Assembly: GCA_017460915.1 (NCBI GenBank)
Contig: JAFUAA010000019.1
Coordinates: 1-46,154 of the forward strand
Source of the DNA: Bacteroidales bacterium
GTDB taxonomy: Bacteria; Bacteroidota; Bacteroidia; Bacteroidales; F082
Length of the DNA: 46,154 nt
Reading direction: 5' to 3'
Position numbers and translations under genes: made by a program. How positions within the stretch are numbered: position 1 is the stretch's first letter; each line of letters starts with the position of its first letter. Shown piece by piece: positions 3,324 to 18,755 of this stretch. The notes beneath the pieces are model-generated. The model was given only the letters and a program-made list of their open reading frames with translations. It did no database searches and was not told the DNA's origin.

Positions 3324-4570
3324 AACTGCCGCTGTTCATAGCCAAGCGTTACCTGCTCGCCAAGAAGAGCCACAACCTCATTAATATCATCACTTGGATT
3401 TCCATTTTGGGTATTAGTGTGGGTTCGTTTGCGCTCATCGTGGTGCTCTCCGCCTTCAACGGGTTGGAGAAGGTGATTTCGTCGATGAACAACCGCCTCA
3501 CACCCGACTTGCAAATCGCTCCTGTGAAAGGCAAGACCATTGACCTGAAGGCTTTCCCATTGGGACAACTGCAAGAAATCCAAAGCGTTGGTTATGTGAT
3601 TCCTACCATCACGGAAGATGCGCTTTTCCGCGCCAACGACAAGCAACATATCGGCCAAGTGAAAGGCGTGGGGCTTGAATACCAGAACATCGAAAGACTG
3701 AATGAAATCATTTTTGGTGACGGCGCTCTTCAACTTTCCGATGATGACGAGCATAGTTTTGCCGTTCCAGGTGCGGGCGTGGCTTGTTATTTGGGCATCA
3801 ATGCCTACAACCCTTATGCGATGGTGCGCGTCTATGTGCCCAAGCGCGGCAACGCCTCCCTGATGAGCCTTGAAAACAGCTTCAACTCCGATGTGCTGAC
3901 GGTGCGCAGCGTGTTTTCCACCGAGCAGGAACAGGACGAAAAACTGGTGCTCGTACCTTTTGATTGGCTTTCGGAACTGCTTGAATATGAGAACAAAGCC
4001 AACAATGTGGAACTTTTTCTTGCGTCCAGTGCAGATATTAATAAGGTGAAAAAGGAAGTGAGGACCGTGATCGGGGAGGACTTCACTGTGAAAAACCAGC
4101 AGGAACAGCAGGAAACGCTTTACCGAATCATGCGTTCGGAGAAATGGGCGGTGTATGTCATCCTCACTTTCATCCTGATTTTGGCCACTTTCAATGTGGT
4201 GGGTTCGCTCTCGATGCTGATGATCGACAAGCGGAAGGACACGGAAATCCTCAAGGCGATGGGCGCCGACAACCGCTTGATACACAAAATCTTCATGAAC
4301 GAAGGCCTGTTGATTTCCGTGGCGGGCGGCATCATCGGGTTGCTGTTGGGTATCATTGTGGTGCTCTTGCAGCAGCAATTCGGTTTCGTGAAGTTCGGCT
4401 CGGGAGGCGGCAATTATGTCGTGGATGCTTATCCCGTCTTGCTGAAAGTCAAGGATGTATTGCTGATTTTTGCCACAATTTTGGCTGTAGGCTGCACTTC
4501 GGCTTTCCTCACTGTTCGACACGCGATGCGAAAATCAATGACTCAGAAGTCCAGATTGAACGACAGATAA
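3320..4570 (+). CDS. FtsX/LolE-type ABC transporter permease
   Basis: A 416-residue inner-membrane protein with an N-terminal transmembrane segment (about residues 20-45), a large periplasmic MacB-like domain (about 45-270) and three C-terminal transmembrane segments (about 275-400). This is the FtsX permease layout. It resembles the LolC/LolE lipoprotein-release permeases, which pair with a separate ATPase; no ATPase gene is adjacent. The start is a GTG overlapping the rbfA stop. The 3' end runs 28 nt into the convergent gene on the other strand. The rbfA-permease pairing is common in Bacteroidetes. The transported substrate is inferred only. Confidence 0.85.
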   Translation: MKLPLFIAKRYLLAKKSHNLINIITWISILGISVGSFALIVVLSAFNGLEKVISSMNNRLTPDLQIAPVKGKTIDLKAFPLGQLQEIQSVGYVIPTITEDALFRANDKQHIGQVKGVGLEYQNIERLNEIIFGDGALQLSDDDEHSFAVPGAGVACYLGINAYNPYAMVRVYVPKRGNASLMSLENSFNSDVLTVRSVFSTEQEQDEKLVLVPFDWLSELLEYENKANNVELFLASSADINKVKKEVRTVIGEDFTVKNQQEQQETLYRIMRSEKWAVYVILTFILILATFNVVGSLSMLMIDKRKDTEILKAMGADNRLIHKIFMNEGLLISVAGGIIGLLLGIIVVLLQQQFGFVKFGSGGGNYVVDAYPVLLKVKDVLLIFATILAVGCTSAFLTVRHAMRKSMTQKSRLNDR

Positions 4571-7500
4571 TACCTAGGCTTTTTTGCGATTTGTCCATCT
4601 TGTATTCCCCAAGCCACATCTCCTCTGACGAAATAGCCGAAAATGGTGGTGCGCAAGCCAAAGCCAACACCCCCGACCAAGGGTTCCTTCATCTCGGTGA
4701 CGGTGATGTTGAGGTTGCCGTCGCTGATGTGGGTGTTGTAGAGCGAGTTGCTCGGGTCGTAAGGATTCCAGCCGGTCCAGGCGGTGCCCAGGTCGCCGAA
4801 AGCCACAAGCTGGAAGTCGCGGATGAATTTCATGTTGATGGGCCGGTTCATGAAGTAGCTGAACACGGGGAAACGTAGCTCACTGTTGAGCACAATGAAA
4901 TTGTTGCCGTTGCGGATGTTTTGGCTGAAGCCGCGCATATTGGTGGCCAAAGTTTGATAAGCATAGTTTTGGGTATAGTCGATGGGCGTGCCCGTGTCGA
5001 ATGAGGCCAAAATCCAGTTGTCGACGCCGCCCATGTAATAGATGAGTTTCCGTTGCCCAAATGAGGTGCTGCCCGCGATGCGGTTGGCCCAGATGAAATT
5101 GCGGCTGATGCGGGTGTAATGCCTGTAATCGAAGCCAGCTACAATCACGTTGGCTGTGTTTTTGGCGATTTTCTGGTGGTACTCAGCAAAAATCTTCCCT
5201 CTTGCACCGACAAGCAGATTGGTTCCGATTTTCTTCGAGTTGTCGTAAACGAGTTCACCACGCACGCCACCCCAGTTTTCGAAAACGTCCTTGTCGGCTA
5301 AGCTGTAATTGTCGATGGCCAAATTCACCTTTTGGTCATTGCGGTAAATGGCAGTGCCTCGCAGACTTAGGATTTCGCTGAAAGGATAACTCAACGTATA
5401 AAAAGCCTCGTTTGTGAAAGTGCGGTAATAGTAATTGGTGTAGTTGTCGGTGACGAAACGGTGCAGTGTGATGCTCTTGTCCAAGCGTTTGCCGAAGTCG
5501 CTGAAGCGAAGCATGTATTCGTTATTGGTGAGGCTCGTGTTGAGTTTCACGCCGAGTTCGATTTTGTAGTCTTCCATCAGGTCGTTCATCGTGGTGCCAA
5601 GGAAAATGTTGAAGCCTGAATTGAGGTAAATAGGTGCAAATCCTCCAGTGAATGGTTGGTAGCTGTAGTTCATGCTGGTGAAGTCGATTTGGCTCATCAG
5701 CTGGTCGGCAAAGAGTTCCACATAGTAGTTGTTAGGGCGTTGGATGGTGTCTTTCGGACGCGGTTGTGGGGCTGCACCTTGACCTTGTTGCATCAATTGA
5801 ACCGAATCCGCCCCCAAGGGTCCGTTGATTTGCCTCTTGCGGCGGGCGTAACGGTAACTTGTTGAGAACCTGTGCCTTGATATAGGCTCAATGATGGAAT
5901 CCTTTTTCTCTTCTTTCAACTTTTCAATCAAACGCTTTTGGGCGTAAGGGTTCAATTGGTTGAGGCGTTCTTCTTGGCCTCGTAGGATGGGCGACATGAA
6001 GAACTTCTCGCCGCTTTGTTCGGCTATCAGCATCGCGGCTTTGTGGTCGCGGGGCTGATAACTATAGTCGATGATGTTGGCGGAATAGTTTGTAAGTTGC
6101 TCACGCTTACCGAAATAGCGATAATTGACAATGGTGTCGATATGGCTGATGGCGCTGTCGAAGCGGATTTGGTAGAGGTTGTAGTAGCCGCTCGTGTCGT
6201 TGAGATAGAGCATGCTGCCGTCTTTTAGCGGCTCGGGCCGGACGTTGTTCGAGAAGCGTTGCTGGGTCAGGTTCTGCAAGACCACACCTTTATTAATATA
6301 GTTGTAGGCGAACAAATCGAACTGTTTGTTCTGGAAGCCGATTTCGTCATCGGCCTTAAGGGTGTCGTTGTTGCGATTCGAGCTGAACACGATTTGGTGG
6401 TCGTTGTAAGTGAAGACGGGGTCGAGGTCGGTGTGCCAGTCGTTGGTGATTTGTTCCAAAGTGTTGGAGAACAGGTTGTAGACGTAAATGTCGGGTTTGC
6501 CCATGCGGGTGGCAGCGAGCACGATTTTGCGACTTTTGTGAGCATATGAGAAAGAACTGACTTTCTGGAAATCAAACAGATAAGTGCTGGCTTTCTTCCC
6601 CGAGTTGACATCCAGGTTATAGAGTTGGATTTTGCCTTTTTCCTCGATGATGAACGACAGGATTTCGCCGTTGGGGTGCCACGCCAAAAGCGGAAACGAG
6701 GTGTCAATGTTCTCGTCGGAATGATAGCCCGCGCTGAACAGTTGCTGTCGTTTGCCGCTTTGCAAATCCTCAAGCCAAAGGCGTATCTTGCCCTCGTCGT
6801 TGCTGACGTAGGCCATCATTTTCCCGTTCGGGCTGATGCTAGGCTGTGTGAAAGTGCGGTATTTCTTGTATTTCAGCTTCATCACGTCGTTGGGCAGGCT
6901 CGTCATCAGGCTCTCGTAGCGGCTCTTGTAGAACGCATACCATTCTTCAATCAAGGCCTTGTATTCCTTGCCCGTGACGTAGAGCAACGCTTTTTTCACG
7001 TTTTGGCTGTTTTCGGCCAAGGTCAAGATGTCGTTGAAAGCCTTGCTGCCGTATTGTTCGTCGATGAAATTCCAGAACGAATAGCCTGCAATCAAGGCGT
7101 CGTTGTCGCGCAAGTGGTTGATTTTTCTGTAGTTGCCCGATGTGATGCCACGTTGCAGCTGGGCTTCCTTGTGGCTGTCCCAGTTGCCTGCGATGTAGGC
7201 TACCAGTCCGTCTTGGAACCACTGCGGGATGTCGTAGCGGTACGAGTTGCGGATTTGTGACCCCACCGAGATGCCATTCATCACTTGGCTGAACAACAAC
7301 CTTGTGATGCCTTCGCGGATTTGTGCCTCGAAGTGGGTGTAGTCGCCATCGAAGTAAAGGATGACTTTCGACCCGATGATCTTGGTGATGCCGCCCGTAT
7401 TACCGTTTTCTTCTTCTTCAAGGTTGATGTTGCTCTGCTTGAAGTCGGCCATGCTGTTGAAGACGATGAACTGGATCTTTTTTCCGAAACGGCTGTTGAG

Positions 7501-7746
7501 GCGCAACTCAAGGCGAGGAATTTGGTCTTTGGCGTAGGCTTGGGCGTATTTGGCGAGGTCGTTGCCACCTTGGTAGAAATATACGTCGAAGTTGTCGTTC
7601 ATATAGTACGACCAATGGAAGTCGTTCCATTGCACACGGTTCTTCCCGAAAGGCATGTTCATCCCGTTGTAGAACTGGGCATGAGCCATCGGGGCTGCCA
7701 AAAACAGGGCCAACAAAAGAATCGCGTATGTTTTCTTCGAAAGCAT
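4543..7746 (-). CDS. Large secreted protein: degenerate peptidase-like domain, TolB-like propeller and outer-membrane barrel
   Basis: With the start at 7746 the protein has 1067 residues and opens with a clean signal peptide (ALFLAAPMAHAQ); a longer in-frame start at 7866 would read through the promoter. Residues of about 20-290 look like a gluzincin (peptidase MA-like) domain: IPQWFQDGLVAYIAG matches the usual W-x-EG-x-A helix. The place of HExxH holds REGITRLLF, so zinc catalysis is unlikely. Residues of about 290-580 carry PD40/TolB propeller repeats (QPSISPNGKMMAYVSN, LLAWHPNGEILSF). Residues of about 690-1067 resemble a surface-antigen beta-barrel ending YYLSFNLDF with a terminal aromatic. 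Function unknown; outer-membrane location inferred. Confidence 0.75.
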   Translation of the reverse strand: MLSKKTYAILLLALFLAAPMAHAQFYNGMNMPFGKNRVQWNDFHWSYYMNDNFDVYFYQGGNDLAKYAQAYAKDQIPRLELRLNSRFGKKIQFIVFNSMADFKQSNINLEEEENGNTGGITKIIGSKVILYFDGDYTHFEAQIREGITRLLFSQVMNGISVGSQIRNSYRYDIPQWFQDGLVAYIAGNWDSHKEAQLQRGITSGNYRKINHLRDNDALIAGYSFWNFIDEQYGSKAFNDILTLAENSQNVKKALLYVTGKEYKALIEEWYAFYKSRYESLMTSLPNDVMKLKYKKYRTFTQPSISPNGKMMAYVSNDEGKIRLWLEDLQSGKRQQLFSAGYHSDENIDTSFPLLAWHPNGEILSFIIEEKGKIQLYNLDVNSGKKASTYLFDFQKVSSFSYAHKSRKIVLAATRMGKPDIYVYNLFSNTLEQITNDWHTDLDPVFTYNDHQIVFSSNRNNDTLKADDEIGFQNKQFDLFAYNYINKGVVLQNLTQQRFSNNVRPEPLKDGSMLYLNDTSGYYNLYQIRFDSAISHIDTIVNYRYFGKREQLTNYSANIIDYSYQPRDHKAAMLIAEQSGEKFFMSPILRGQEERLNQLNPYAQKRLIEKLKEEKKDSIIEPISRHRFSTSYRYARRKRQINGPLGADSVQLMQQGQGAAPQPRPKDTIQRPNNYYVELFADQLMSQIDFTSMNYSYQPFTGGFAPIYLNSGFNIFLGTTMNDLMEDYKIELGVKLNTSLTNNEYMLRFSDFGKRLDKSITLHRFVTDNYTNYYYRTFTNEAFYTLSYPFSEILSLRGTAIYRNDQKVNLAIDNYSLADKDVFENWGGVRGELVYDNSKKIGTNLLVGARGKIFAEYHQKIAKNTANVIVAGFDYRHYTRISRNFIWANRIAGSTSFGQRKLIYYMGGVDNWILASFDTGTPIDYTQNYAYQTLATNMRGFSQNIRNGNNFIVLNSELRFPVFSYFMNRPINMKFIRDFQLVAFGDLGTAWTGWNPYDPSNSLYNTHISDGNLNITVTEMKEPLVGGVGFGLRTTIFGYFVRGDVAWGIQDGQIAKKPRYYLSFNLDF

Positions 7747-7764
7747 CAAAAACGTTTTAGCCGA

Positions 7765-7772
7765 CAAAGATA
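7765..7772 (-). promoter_or_regulatory. TATCTTTG promoter box for the propeller/barrel gene
   Basis: The reverse strand reads TATCTTTG 19 nt upstream of the 7746 start, which supports that start over the longer frame. Confidence 0.6.
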
Positions 7773-7805
7773 GGCAAATTCTTGTGATTATTGTAGAAAA
7801 TACCT

Positions 7806-14715: not shown

Positions 14716-14723
14716 TATCTTTG
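14716..14723 (+). promoter_or_regulatory. TATCTTTG promoter box for the HprK-S24-PqqD-nucleotidyltransferase operon
   Basis: A TAnnTTTG match 18 nt before the ATG at 14742. It is the only clear promoter ahead of the four-gene operon. Confidence 0.6.
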
Positions 14724-14741
14724 CCACAAATTTTTTGACCA

Positions 14742-15611
14742 ATGAAGAAGATATATCAAGTGGCAGGTCACAGGTTTTCGGTTGTCATGCCCGACAGCCA
14801 TTTGGCGTGGGGCGAAATGACCCCTTATGAGCCTTTTTTGGTGGAGAACGACAACGACTTGGCTTTTTCGATCGAGATGGTCGATGCGTTGCCCGATACA
14901 TCCGGGAAGCACAAGATCACTGTGAGCTGCGAAGCTCCCGATGCCCCTCGTATCGTGCTGTATGACTGGAATGGGATTTGGTTGATGGAAATCGCTCCAA
15001 CCTCCGAGGCGCCAATGCGGGTTTGTCTTCTTGTCGATAAGGCATTCAAGAAGGCTCAATTCCGCGTGCTCGGTAGTCTCAGGTTTTCCATTGGCACGGT
15101 GATGATGTTGATGTTCGCTTTCAGTACGGCCCAAAAGAGCACCTTGCTGATGCATTCTTCAGTCACGGTCAAAGATGGGAAAGGCTATCTTTTCCTTGGC
15201 AAAAGCGGTACGGGCAAGAGCACGCATAGCCGGCTGTGGATCGGGAATATACCAGGATGCGAATTGCTTAACGACGACAACCCGGTGTTGCGCGTGATGG
15301 ATGACGGCGAGGTGCGCGTCTATGGCTCTCCGTGGAGCGGCAAGACGCCGTGTTACCGCAATCTGGACTATCCCGTGGGTGCCATCGTTAATCTGAAACA
15401 GGCCAAGGCGAACACAATCCGCCAACTCTCCCTCGTTGAGGCTTACGCGGCGATGTATGTGTCCTTCTCTGGCTATCGGTTTATCAAGGAAATGGCTGAC
15501 GGGCTACATGCCACTAATGAGAGAATTGTCACCAGCGTGCCTTGCTTTGGCCTCGACTGCTTGCCCAATGCCGAAGCCGCTTGGCTGTGCTATAACAACG
15601 TTTCGAAATGA
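14742..15611 (+). CDS. HPr kinase/phosphorylase-like protein of a candidate peptide-modification operon
   Basis: A 289-residue protein whose C-terminal half (about 135-285) resembles the HprK P-loop kinase domain. The Walker A is FLGKSGTGKSTHSRLW (about residues 150-165), followed by LLNDDNPVL and VYGSPWSGKTPCY, and a helical tail. The N-terminal half is a beta-rich domain with no match I recognise. HprK-like kinases of this kind occur in lasso-peptide and PqqD-containing clusters; in the paeninodin system one phosphorylates the precursor peptide. True HPr-Ser kinases would sit near sugar-transport genes, which are absent. Its stop overlaps the next start (ATGA). The substrate is inferred. 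Confidence 0.8.
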   Translation: MKKIYQVAGHRFSVVMPDSHLAWGEMTPYEPFLVENDNDLAFSIEMVDALPDTSGKHKITVSCEAPDAPRIVLYDWNGIWLMEIAPTSEAPMRVCLLVDKAFKKAQFRVLGSLRFSIGTVMMLMFAFSTAQKSTLLMHSSVTVKDGKGYLFLGKSGTGKSTHSRLWIGNIPGCELLNDDNPVLRVMDDGEVRVYGSPWSGKTPCYRNLDYPVGAIVNLKQAKANTIRQLSLVEAYAAMYVSFSGYRFIKEMADGLHATNERIVTSVPCFGLDCLPNAEAAWLCYNNVSK

Positions 15612-16051
15612 TGGAAGAATTGATGAACTCCGAAATTGTGCAACACCTGCTCGAGGGTAGAACCATCCAGCTTTCTCCTCAAGGCAACAGTATGTTTCCC
15701 TTTATCCATGGTGGAAAGGACAAGGTGTTGGTCCAACGCAAAGACAAGATAAGACTGGGCAACATCGTGTTGGCATTCCACCAAGGCAAATGGATCTTGC
15801 ACCGCGTCTATGACAAGGATGCCCGACGTATCACCTTGATGGGTGATGGCAACACGAATGGCGTCGAACTGGTGAAAGAAGGCGATATCTATGGAACCGT
15901 GATCGCCATCATTTCTCCTTCCGGACGCTCTCGCAAGCCCCGCAAGGCCTTGTTTTGGAGAAACACGCTTGCCGATAGGAAAATCTTGCTGAAAATCGTC
16001 AGAAAATGGAACAAATTGTTTCGCAAACAACACAATGATAATACCTTATGA
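15608..16051 (+). CDS. S24/S26-type serine peptidase (signal-peptidase-like)
   Basis: A 147-residue protein with the S26 active-site box GNSMFPFIHGGKDKV, giving nucleophile Ser about residue 28. After it come IVLAFHQGKWILHRVY, with a His-Arg pair typical of the Ser-His dyad (SipW/Sec11-like) branch, and LMGDGNTNGVE, matching the GDN box. No N-terminal membrane anchor is visible, so it is probably cytoplasmic; a basic tail could touch membrane or RNA. It overlaps both neighbours by ATGA. In this operon it may remove a leader peptide; that is inference. Confidence 0.8.
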   Translation: MMEELMNSEIVQHLLEGRTIQLSPQGNSMFPFIHGGKDKVLVQRKDKIRLGNIVLAFHQGKWILHRVYDKDARRITLMGDGNTNGVELVKEGDIYGTVIAIISPSGRSRKPRKALFWRNTLADRKILLKIVRKWNKLFRKQHNDNTL

Positions 16052-16320
16052 GAACGAAAAAAGGATTCAACCTGCGCACCTTGGGCAACGAGTTTGTCCT
16101 GACCGCCGAAGGTCTCGAGGTCTCTGATGTCAATAAAATGGTCTCCATGAACGCATCGGCCGCTTTCTTGTGGAAAGAAGTGGAAGGCAAGGATTTCGAT
16201 GCCGAAACATTAACCGGCCTTTTGTTGGGCGAATACGATATCGACCGCGAAGTTGCCGAAAAAGATGCTGCCCGCCTTGTCCGAACCTGGAAGGAGGCCA
16301 ACATCGTTGAGGATTATTAA
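16048..16320 (+). CDS. PqqD family peptide-binding protein (RRE)
   Basis: A 90-residue protein of the PqqD fold: a beta-hairpin (FNLRTLGNEFVLTAEG), the conserved MVSMNASAAFLWKEVEGK (N, AAxLW) and three helices ending VRTWKEANIVEDY. PqqD-like domains are RiPP recognition elements that hold a leader peptide and present it to a modifying enzyme. It sits between the S24 peptidase (ATGA overlap) and the nucleotidyltransferase (15-nt gap). Its presence is the strongest sign that the operon works on a ribosomal peptide. Confidence 0.88.
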   Translation: MRTKKGFNLRTLGNEFVLTAEGLEVSDVNKMVSMNASAAFLWKEVEGKDFDAETLTGLLLGEYDIDREVAEKDAARLVRTWKEANIVEDY

Positions 16321-16335
16321 TTAATAAGGTGTTCG

Positions 16336-17445
16336 ATGACTTCTTCCGAAACCCACTATTTCGTACTGCTCCGCGCGGCCTTGTGGACCCAGCCCGTCCA
16401 TTTCGCCGAACCCGTCGATTGGAAGGCTGTCATGCGCATAGCTTCCCATCAAGGTAATGCGGCTCTGTTGAGCGATGTGGCTACCAGAATGACGGGCAGC
16501 AACAGCCCCGATGCCACGACGCTGGCGAAAATGCGCGACAGCATGCGCGCCAATCTGGTCCATCAAATGAATCTGAAATCGATCTTGGTTTCGGTGGTCC
16601 AAAAACTCCGTCAACACAACATCGAACCCGTGCTGCTCAAAGGTTTCGGATTGGCAATGCTTTACCCCAACCCGAACTTGCGACAGTTTGGCGACACCGA
16701 TCTTTTTGTCGGCCTTGCCAACTTCCATGAAGCCTGTGCCCTGGTTCGTGGCATGCCTGGATGCTACAATTGGGGAGAGGAAGTGGATGTGGGACGGCAC
16801 TACAATGTCGAGTTTGGCCCCTATCCGATGGAAATACACCGCGTTAGTGCCGAGGTGATGGATAGGCAGGAGAAGTTGGCCTATGCCGACATTGAACGAG
16901 ATGGCTTGTTCGAGAACACCCGGAAGGTCGATTTGGAGGGCTTCGAATTGTCGGTCCCGTCAATGGAATTCGTGGTATTCTTCACCTTTTCCCACGCTTG
17001 GCACCATTTCCTGACCACAGGCGTGGGGCTGCGCCAACTCTCCGATGTGGCCATGGCACTCCATGCCTACCATGGGCAGCTCGACCTCGACAAACTGCAA
17101 CGCTGGCTCGCCTCCATGCATCTGATGCTCCCTTGGCAAACCTTTGGTTGCCTGATGGTGGAGCATCTCGGCCTGCCCGATGACCAAATGCCGTTTTATG
17201 AAGCTTCGTGCCATCGCAGGGCACAAAAGCTCTTTGCCCGCATCATGGAGGAAGGCAACTTCAAGCGTGACAACAACTTCCGCCGCAACAAACCGAAAGG
17301 ACGCTTTTGGCACAAAGCCCATACCTTTCTCTGCATCTTCGTCGATTTCTTCCGCTTGGTCAAGATCTTCCCTCGGCATGCCTTCCGTGAATTGCAAACC
17401 TCGTTCCGCTATGGGCTGGGCAAGTATTTCCACCGACACGATTGA
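16336..17445 (+). CDS. NTP_transf_5 family nucleotidyltransferase-like protein
   Basis: A 369-residue protein with the family's helical N-terminus and the motif PVLLKGFGLAMLYPNP, then RQFGDTDLFV, where the D-x-D pair of a nucleotidyltransferase active site lies about residue 118. HRVSAEVM and a helical C-terminal half (FFTFSHAWHHFLTTGVGLRQLSDVAM) follow. Such proteins (PF14907) are frequent companions of PqqD/HprK genes in lasso-type and related clusters; their activity is little studied. Last gene of the four-gene operon. The reaction on the peptide (nucleotidyl transfer) is only inferred. Confidence 0.82.
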   Translation: MTSSETHYFVLLRAALWTQPVHFAEPVDWKAVMRIASHQGNAALLSDVATRMTGSNSPDATTLAKMRDSMRANLVHQMNLKSILVSVVQKLRQHNIEPVLLKGFGLAMLYPNPNLRQFGDTDLFVGLANFHEACALVRGMPGCYNWGEEVDVGRHYNVEFGPYPMEIHRVSAEVMDRQEKLAYADIERDGLFENTRKVDLEGFELSVPSMEFVVFFTFSHAWHHFLTTGVGLRQLSDVAMALHAYHGQLDLDKLQRWLASMHLMLPWQTFGCLMVEHLGLPDDQMPFYEASCHRRAQKLFARIMEEGNFKRDNNFRRNKPKGRFWHKAHTFLCIFVDFFRLVKIFPRHAFRELQTSFRYGLGKYFHRHD

Positions 17446-17511
17446 GCTTGCCTTTCCCGTTTTGGATTATTAATCTGCAGAAAAAAAAGGAAAAATGAAG
17501 TTTTTTTTTTC

Positions 17512-17539
17512 TTGCGTATGAAATAATTGCTTATTTTTG
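17512..17539 (+). promoter_or_regulatory. Complete promoter for the 42-residue peptide gene
   Basis: TTG at 17512-17514, 17 nt, then TATTTTTG at 17532-17539: a good Bacteroidetes -33/-7 pair. The A-rich leader of about 60 nt precedes the ATG at 17606. It gives the small peptide its own, probably stronger, expression than the enzyme operon. Confidence 0.7.
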
Positions 17540-17605
17540 CAGCCGATTTTTAAACGATCGAAAAACAAGTAATCAACAAATTGTCTAACTAAAAAAAGTA
17601 AAAAA

Positions 17606-17734
17606 ATGAAAAAGATGAACAAAATGTACGAAGCCCCTGTGGCTGAAGTGATTGAAATCAACAACGTTGCTGTCCTGATGGAATCGACGACGGGTACTCC
17701 CGCTGGTGGCGGAGATGGATTCGGTGAAGATTAA
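17606..17734 (+). CDS. 42-residue peptide, candidate RiPP precursor
   Basis: A short gene between the modification operon and the lipoprotein gene. The protein has a basic start (MKKMNKMYEAP), an amphipathic leader-like middle (VAEVIEINNVAVLME), then a small, Gly/Thr/Asp-rich acidic tail (STTGTPAGGGDGFGED). Tails of this kind after a hydrophobic E-V-I-E segment recur in unannotated Bacteroidales small proteins. No signal peptide is seen. An A-rich leader and a separate promoter (17512-17539) support expression. The S/T residues at 27-31 are possible kinase targets and the tail a possible core. Precursor status is inferred from size, composition and position beside HprK/S24/PqqD/NTP_transf_5. 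Confidence 0.72.
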   Translation: MKKMNKMYEAPVAEVIEINNVAVLMESTTGTPAGGGDGFGED

Positions 17735-17768: not shown

Positions 17769-18755
17769 ATGAAGAAGAAAAGATTGTTTGTCACGATGTG
17801 TATGATGGGCGGCTTCGCCTTGCTCATGTCGTCGTGCAAAAAAGCAAATGAATCCGTTGAGGTGTCTATCAATCTGCCTCAGTGTGAGGAAAAAGCTGAT
17901 GGAAGGGCTTATATTGACTTCGCCAATGGCGGCGCATTTAAATGGAATGCCGAGGACCAAGTGGCGATTTACAATCTTGATGCCCAAAACGGCGCCAATT
18001 CCGAAAGAGCCATCTATCAAACCACGGCTAGCGCTGCTGGTCAGGCAACAGCTCGGTTCTCTTTTGCGAGCGGCGACCAACTTTCGGCCAAGAAGAGCGG
18101 ATATTTTGTTTTCTACCCGGTTTCCAAGCTTGATGGCGAATTGGGAGAGGACAACTACCAGAATTTCTCGGTGAGCGCCACGCAGCAGTACTCCAAGGAT
18201 CTTAATGCCAATCCTACCATCGATCTCGAGTCAATGGCTATGGCTTGCACACTCGGTTCCTTGAATGGCACTTTTACCTTGAAGCATATCTTCGGTATTT
18301 TGAGATTGAAGCTTAAAGGTGAAGGTAATGTGACCCGCATCGTTGTTGAAGATTCGAGATTCAACTTGAACGGCACCGTTGGAATGAAACTCCATGCCGT
18401 TGACATGGATAGATTCACTTCCTTGCAGAACATGTACATTAACGATGATGATCCTTATGCAAACGACAACTTCGTGGCTGCTTGGAATGACTACAAGGAA
18501 GAGTTGAGCTACTCGGTCGCTGGCGGTAATGAGGGTAAGACCATTACGCTCGAATGCCCCAGCATTGGCTTGAATGGCGACACTGAAACTCCTTTCTACG
18601 TTGGTCTTCGTCCGGGTGCCCTGAAGTATGGTTTCAAAGTGTATGTGTATATTGAAGGCGAAAACGAACCGCACGTTCTTGACTACACTGGCCAAAACAA
18701 CCTGCACTATGGCATCAAGGCTGGCGTGATCAAAAACATTTCGGCTACACTCTAA
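17769..18755 (+). CDS. Fimbrillin-like lipoprotein
   Basis: A 328-residue lipoprotein with signal peptide and lipobox LMSSC (Cys 23). After it comes a beta-rich chain with features of the fimbrillin/FimA-Mfa family: an early FKWNAEDQVAIYN segment, SGYFVFYPVS, and the conserved FTLKHIFGILRLKLKG strand, ending with YGIKAGVIKNISATL. It follows the 42-residue peptide by 34 nt on the same strand and shares its promoter, with a terminator right after it. It may be an anchored pilus-like or adhesin protein; whether it serves the peptide system is unknown. Confidence 0.75.
   Translation: MKKKRLFVTMCMMGGFALLMSSCKKANESVEVSINLPQCEEKADGRAYIDFANGGAFKWNAEDQVAIYNLDAQNGANSERAIYQTTASAAGQATARFSFASGDQLSAKKSGYFVFYPVSKLDGELGEDNYQNFSVSATQQYSKDLNANPTIDLESMAMACTLGSLNGTFTLKHIFGILRLKLKGEGNVTRIVVEDSRFNLNGTVGMKLHAVDMDRFTSLQNMYINDDDPYANDNFVAAWNDYKEELSYSVAGGNEGKTITLECPSIGLNGDTETPFYVGLRPGALKYGFKVYVYIEGENEPHVLDYTGQNNLHYGIKAGVIKNISATL

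Follow-up and report, generated by a model that had tools for sequence, protein, structure and literature searches.

A probable linear-phosphopeptide pathway acting on a 42-residue peptide in a Bacteroidales genome

The window analysed here is a stretch of 46,154 nucleotides (nt) from a Bacteroidales bacterium of the family F082 (contig JAFUAA010000019.1 of assembly GCA_017460915.1, forward strand). It contains an operon encoding an HprK-like kinase, an S24/S26 peptidase, a PqqD-family protein and an NTP_transf_5 protein, followed by the gene of a 42-residue peptide. By analogy with characterized enzymes, this set is very probably a pathway for a linear phosphorylated RiPP (ribosomally synthesized and post-translationally modified peptide), of the same type as the linear polyphosphorylated peptides (LPPs), and the 42-residue peptide would be its substrate. 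The conserved RiPP pathway is real, and appears to work like that of LPPs, in a phylum where LPPs are unreported. The genes and the residue of interest are listed below; several of them were located from the list of open reading frames (ORFs) and by family searches.

14742 to 15611, + strand: HprK/ScmC-like kinase gene (LppK-like), from the ORF list and a family search
15608 to 16051, + strand: gene of a signal-peptidase/LexA-fold serine protease (LppS-like), probably soluble, with Ser28, His65 and probably Asp93
16048 to 16320, + strand: gene of a PqqD-family RiPP recognition element, or RRE (LppB-like), PF05402, with Asn35 and Asp73
16336 to 17445, + strand: gene of an NTP_transf_5 nucleotidyltransferase-like protein (LppN-like), PF14907, with a KG...GDxD motif
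17606 to 17734, + strand: precursor peptide gene, 42 residues, with a YEAPVAE leader (residues 8 to 14) and a variable acidic tail
17684 to 17686, + strand: codon of Ser27 (Tyr8+19), the predicted phosphorylation site according to the pattern of Ser positions

The recurrence of the kinase, S24, PqqD, NTP and peptide genes excludes a chance grouping. Relatives come from two sources, a scan of genome contigs that gave 28 loci and a set of 60 related genomes. Among the nine nearest loci (L002 to L010), eight are long enough to be read and all eight have the order kinase, S24, PqqD, NTP, peptide, lipoprotein; the contig of L004 stops within the peptide gene. The peptide is in the same place in 12 of 14 further kinase loci fetched from the same genus, the exceptions being those of G014 and G025. 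Two pairs of loci are duplicates (L010 and L054, L007 and L057), which leaves 18 distinct loci besides the window. The first-pass annotation had proposed to look for a gene of 35–60 residues next to this neighbourhood, and these counts show that it recurs there. In G014 the order is NTP, kinase, S24, PqqD, ABC, with no peptide on the 6.2-kb contig; the genome has six scattered peptide matches.

The presence of the peptide follows that of the kinase across the order. In 392 genomes, the kinase (E ≤ 1e-13, 55 genomes) is found in 35 of the 36 genomes that have the peptide (E ≤ 0.01, with a profile of 19 diverse leaders) and in 20 of the 356 others; this search scored no more than six first-look candidates from each genome, so that both columns may lack some kinases. 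A stricter cut-off (E ≤ 1e-20) leaves 27 of the 36 peptide genomes kinase-positive. The remaining nine were rechecked: eight have a kinase at E ≤ 4e-14, G289 has none at E ≤ 0.001, and the order-wide search was repeated at 1e-13 so that both columns share one cut-off. When the 14 known source genomes of the profile are removed, 21 of 22 peptide genomes are kinase-positive, and 16 of 17 (by hand count) when the source genera are removed too; L019 supplied a row of the profile and its genome could not be removed from the source-excluded count. With A6, a profile built from the genus only, 17 of 18 peptide genomes have the kinase at 1e-13, the odd one being G148, whose match lies within a frame of 9266 residues. 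Within the genus of the window (its own genome and 35 others, 58–100% complete), a peptide match at E ≤ 1e-4 is found for 14 of the 15 genomes with a kinase and for none of the 21 others. This co-occurrence supports the earlier proposal that the set would modify the 42-residue peptide.

Sixteen of the 36 genomes, G142 included, have a peptide at 0.3–4.8 kb from the kinase, in several gene orders, and synteny between close relatives is therefore no explanation for the pairing. The number of copies varies. Of the 14 genomes in the genus that have the peptide, 6, including that of the window, show a single match; G019 of the same genus has nine (E ≤ 0.1), and the highest number per genome, 16 (E ≤ 0.01), is found in G088, from another family, the extra copies in both being mostly distant from the kinase. 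A regular-expression search for YxxP ORFs near distant kinases returned many spurious ORFs, and the counts use profiles instead.

Alternatively, the short gene could have nothing to do with the enzymes and regulate the lipoprotein gene that follows it, as an upstream ORF or attenuator. The features that bear on this are the following.

14716 to 14723, + strand: promoter-like -7 box TATCTTTG of the kinase operon, a TAnnTTTG-type match
17532 to 17539, + strand: promoter-like box TATTTTTG ahead of the peptide, a TAnnTTTG-type match
17769 to 18755, + strand: lipoprotein gene, 34 nt past the peptide, with lipobox Cys23 and a signal peptide judged by eye

We take the two TAnnTTTG boxes to be the Bacteroidetes promoter motif; a box of this type is also present ahead of the kinase and ahead of the peptide in the loci examined (L002, L003 and L005). 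The operon extends from 14742 to 17445, its first two junctions being ATGA overlaps and the third a 15-nt gap, and is flanked by lnt (apolipoprotein N-acyltransferase) on the opposite side and BamG downstream. The ORFs, the junctions and the box confirm that four coupled genes are followed by a short gene with a promoter of its own, as had first been noted.

The peptide is thus encoded between a promoter box and the start of the lipoprotein gene, 34 nt upstream of the latter, and 18 of the 20 orphan copies of the genus likewise precede a lipoprotein, both of which would suit an upstream ORF. Two genomes of the same genus, G022 and G030, argue otherwise: the kinase is not found at E ≤ 0.01, nor the peptide at E ≤ 0.1, and lnt adjoins the lipoprotein gene, with spacers of 197 and 317 nt (L180 and L181) that contain neither the operon nor the peptide. 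A longer form of the box, TATTTTTGCAGC, is still ahead of the lipoprotein gene in both operon-free loci. The joint absence of operon and peptide from the same site indicates that the peptide belongs with the enzymes, while the retention of the lipoprotein shows that the latter can exist alone. The link between the presence of the peptide and that of the kinase, the copies that adjoin the kinase without a lipoprotein between them (e.g., L061, L172, L175, L178 and L179) and the invariant leader residues described below also disagree with an upstream ORF, which we consider very improbable.

As a substrate of the enzymes, the 42-residue peptide, which matches no family in Pfam or NCBIfam searches, has the expected organization. 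The peptides of the genus have a common start, MKKMNKxYEAPxAEVxE, and then diverge. The mean pairwise identity is 0.68 over residues 1 to 25 and 0.26 over the remainder, compared to 0.25 for shuffled tails, in 15 of the 19 operon peptides (the four with a shifted leader were excluded). This conserved leader and hypervariable tail correspond to the leader/core pattern of a RiPP precursor. The Y, P and E of the leader are invariant in all 28 rows of profile A6, the rows themselves having been found by profile. The tails are acidic and variable; the Gly/Asp-rich tail that had been expected to recur is not a constant feature.

Ser is present 18 to 20 residues past the leader Tyr (Y+18 to Y+20) in 36 of 47 peptides: in all 18 scattered ones (not counting the orphans L095 and L103, which nearly duplicate L094 and L101), in 7 of 10 from other families, which were selected by eye from YxxP regular-expression lists, and in 11 of 19 operon-linked ones. 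The frequency of Ser is 0.30 at these positions versus 0.08 beyond. Judging from this pattern, Ser27 of the window peptide is predicted to be the phosphorylated residue.

The closest known system is that of the LPPs, described in May 2026 from Paenibacillus alginolyticus, with the genes lppA, K, B, S, D and N (PMC13381572). According to the main text of that paper, the RRE binds the YxxP motif, the kinase adds one to four phosphates to Ser3 of the core, which is 18 residues past the leader Tyr, a SipW-like protease removes the leader while the peptide is on the RRE, and LppN had no effect in the host used (PMC13381572). Its Discussion presents LPPs as restricted to Bacillota, with a role that is not known, and the word "Bacteroid" is not found in its main text. 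The window shares with the system described there an HprK-like kinase, a discrete RRE, a SipW-like Ser/His protease, an NTP transferase, the absence of a cyclase from the operon, a YxxP leader, a variable tail and a Ser at Y+19 (Y+18 in LPP). Among the features of LPP membership, the kinase residues, the Asn and Asp of the RRE, an SpI-like peptidase, the NTP gene and the YxxP leader with its variable tail are all found. The set had been said to fit no standard RiPP class, a statement that no longer holds given this resemblance, and the roles suggested for the PqqD protein (presentation of the peptide), the kinase and the leader-removing protease agree, by analogy, with the LPP enzyme experiments (PMC13381572). 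No description of such a system in Bacteroidota was recognised in the titles and abstract starts of the openly licensed PMC literature.

The families first assigned to the four enzymes are borne out by Pfam and NCBIfam matches. The kinase has a PEPCK/HprK-type P-loop and matches PF01293 (7e-5) and TIGR04249 (ScmC, 2.8e-7), both under the family cut-offs. ScmC, from the SynChlorMet system, is its top NCBIfam match, but the score is 30 bits for a cut-off of 125, and no further part of that cassette is matched by genes of the operon. His138, Lys159 (Walker A), Asp178 and Asp179 are identical in 14 of 14 aligned sequences and come in the order of the His-Lys-Asp-Asp motif of lasso-peptide kinases (PMC9266682); the assignment relies on motif order rather than on an alignment to a lasso kinase. 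A search of solved structures with the kinase profile returns mostly ABC-transporter P-loops, and HprK at 0.25 only. The protease matches PF00717 (8.9e-6, above cut-off) and has the signal peptidase/LexA fold. Its Ser28 and His65 are found in 16 of 16 sequences and Asp93 in 12 of 16, the latter being paired with D93 of LppS through spacing and not by alignment.

The PqqD protein matches PF05402 at 3.3e-14. Its N35 and D73 align with N33 and D70 of LppB (chain numbering shifted by 18) and are kept in 17 of 17 sequences; the aligned Asp occurs in other PqqD proteins too and is hence less specific. These two YxxP-clasping residues are consistent with the leader-binding groove on which the first reading depended. 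The NTP_transf_5 protein matches PF14907 at 4.6e-36, with K102, G103, G119, D120 and D122 invariant across 10 sequences, and its profile finds no solved structure at E ≤ 1.

Several of these parts also occur in lasso-peptide pathways, and the operon could belong to such a pathway with its cyclase encoded elsewhere in the genome. YxxP leaders, PqqD/B1 proteins, HprK-like kinases and NTP transferases are all lasso parts, and the best solved relative of the PqqD protein is TfuB1, of a lasso system (1.7e-5). The likeness is greatest for the paeninodin type (PadeK/ThcoK, PsmK/PsmN), which has the His-Lys-Asp-Asp kinase, a tailoring protein of nucleotidyltransferase type and a YxxP/WxxP leader bound by B1. 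On the contrary, neither a macrolactam cyclase nor a B2 protease is present in the operon or in the five other neighbours scanned, as had been stated at the outset (the remainder of the genome was not searched), and the protease has a signal-peptidase fold, like LppS. From the operon and the neighbours scanned, a lasso pathway is very unlikely.

In the proposed LPP-type pathway, the PqqD protein would bind the precursor at its YxxP leader, the HprK-like kinase would put one or more phosphates on the Ser behind the leader (Ser27 by prediction), the Ser-His(-Asp) signal-peptidase-like enzyme would then cut off the leader on the RRE, and the NTP_transf_5 protein would decorate the phosphate. The chemical steps, the cut site, the export and the role of the pathway are what we infer from these comparisons. 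The role of the NTP_transf_5 protein is the least certain, since LppN had no effect in its published host; PsmN is annotated as a nucleotidyltransferase, and the addition of hexoses to the phosphate of pseudomycoidin is attributed to it (PMC9266682). The product probably acts extracellularly, with the lipoprotein encoded behind it.

With a strict start required, 19 of the 20 operon loci of the genus have the lipoprotein directly behind the peptide, and it is also there in the twentieth, L055. In the 18 orphan loci mentioned above, a protein matching the profile of the window lipoprotein is found within 400 nt downstream; they include two near-copy pairs (four loci). Of 20 further peptides, most of which are from other families, 11 have the start of a lipobox protein within 400 nt, and L151, L155 and L159 are additional cases. 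Within the genus the two are thus strongly paired; outside it the pairing is frequent without being universal. The window lipoprotein matches no Pfam or NCBIfam family at E ≤ 1, and the label "fimbrillin-like" was dropped, there being no family match behind it. Some long orphan-partner proteins have matches above cut-off, to a beta-helix (L096), an InlB-type repeat (L110), Lcl (L111) and fn3 (L112), and are read as adhesin-like from these domains. The frequent lipoprotein neighbour points to the cell surface.

It is conceivable, at somewhat less than an even chance, that this is a Bacteroidota branch of phosphopeptide RiPPs in which a single maturation set acts on numerous scattered precursors. 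Most of these would be co-transcribed with an adhesin-like surface lipoprotein of their own, and the modified peptide would be a working partner of that lipoprotein (ligand, anchor or assembly factor). The surface link may extend past lipoproteins, as a protein of 1837 residues with multiple fn3 domains and a weak match to the Por secretion tail is encoded behind the peptide, kinase and S24 genes in L178 (7528-13041, genome G109). In L190 (4016-8015, G415), a protein of 1220 residues with GH43 and GH5 matches is encoded behind the peptide gene.

The same adjacency could mean that the peptide is a carrier and that the target of the enzymes is the lipoprotein or a surface polymer; the main text of PMC13381572 reports that LPP and paeninodin clusters of Bacilli are often within capsule loci. 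Yet G022 and G030 keep the lipoprotein without the enzymes, and the YxxP motif that such RREs recognise is on the peptide, which makes a carrier role highly unlikely. Modification of the peptide for signalling, with a TPR regulator as its reader, is also unlikely, if slightly less so. In L184 a TPR-HTH_18 gene (401-2164) comes after a peptide gene, and in L019 a peptide gene is beside a TPR gene (4755-6614) with a sub-threshold LuxR-type HTH; these neighbours recall peptide-sensing regulators. They occur in two loci only, and none is found among the scanned genes near the peptide in the window.

A number of observations weigh against an LPP-type pathway acting on this peptide. The peptide profiles derive from kinase-bearing genomes, and the Fisher tests of co-occurrence ignore shared ancestry. 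In 20 of the 55 kinase genomes there is no peptide match, G289 has a peptide match without the kinase, G025 has the kinase in a divergent locus and no peptide match (E ≤ 1e-4), and the flanks of 19 more distant loci (L011 to L029) gave no peptide with A1, the profile used first. Some of the weakest matches are in long frames (that of G226, 205 residues, and one of G253, 370 residues) and may be due to chance. The eight operon-linked peptides that lack a Ser at Y+18 to Y+20 each have one further on, which suggests that the site may differ in this subgroup. The RRE profile matches LppB (9x8z) at no better than E 0.039.

Other differences concern the LPPs themselves. The system is in Bacteroidota rather than in Bacillota, the phylum given in PMC13381572, and has scattered extra precursors, often directly before a lipoprotein gene. 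Its leader reads YxxPxxEVIE...[LM][MC]xS, and the consensus YxxPxVLxHQxIxFETxxS of that paper is not followed beyond YxxP and the approximate spacing of the Ser. The MsbA-like transporter is not clustered with this operon type: it is absent from the flanks of all 20 genus loci of this gene order. A clustered exporter does occur in G014 and at 22 of the 36 other loci of the order that have the kinase, and the host genome has 10 ABC-transporter matches elsewhere. Since searches for an exporter in the cluster and for the complete leader consensus found neither, the system is LPP-like rather than a strict member of the class.

Related sets were seen in more distant records. The Butyrivibrio plasmid pNP243 (Bacillota; L201) encodes a kinase, a 57-residue YVKPEL peptide, PqqD and S24/S26, with ABC and NTP genes near; this peptide (7606-7779) has a tail rich in Cys and Pro (CWNPCYNPCQP), unlike the acidic tails of Bacteroidales. 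The order PqqD, NTP, ABC, kinase, S24 is found in L202, a Phocaeicola massiliensis record (OY725995.1) filed as a plasmid, and the cassette may therefore move between strains. L203 (MT835698.1, 10203-20655), an UNVERIFIED "Bacteriophage sp." record from human faeces, has kinase, S24, PqqD and ABC; its neighbours look cellular by eye, and the record may be of bacterial DNA entered under a phage label. In L104 (G012, contig C43, reversed orientation), an NTP_transf_5-like match (1452-2552) is near an orphan peptide (4423-4575), and the kinase of G012 is on another contig.

A similar system thus appears to exist in a second phylum: at E ≤ 1e-13, 55 of the 392 genomes searched across the order have the kinase. 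The purpose of phosphorylated linear RiPPs becomes testable in a tractable strain of Bacteroides or Prevotella, and the tie between phosphopeptide precursor and lipoprotein is the most interesting lead.

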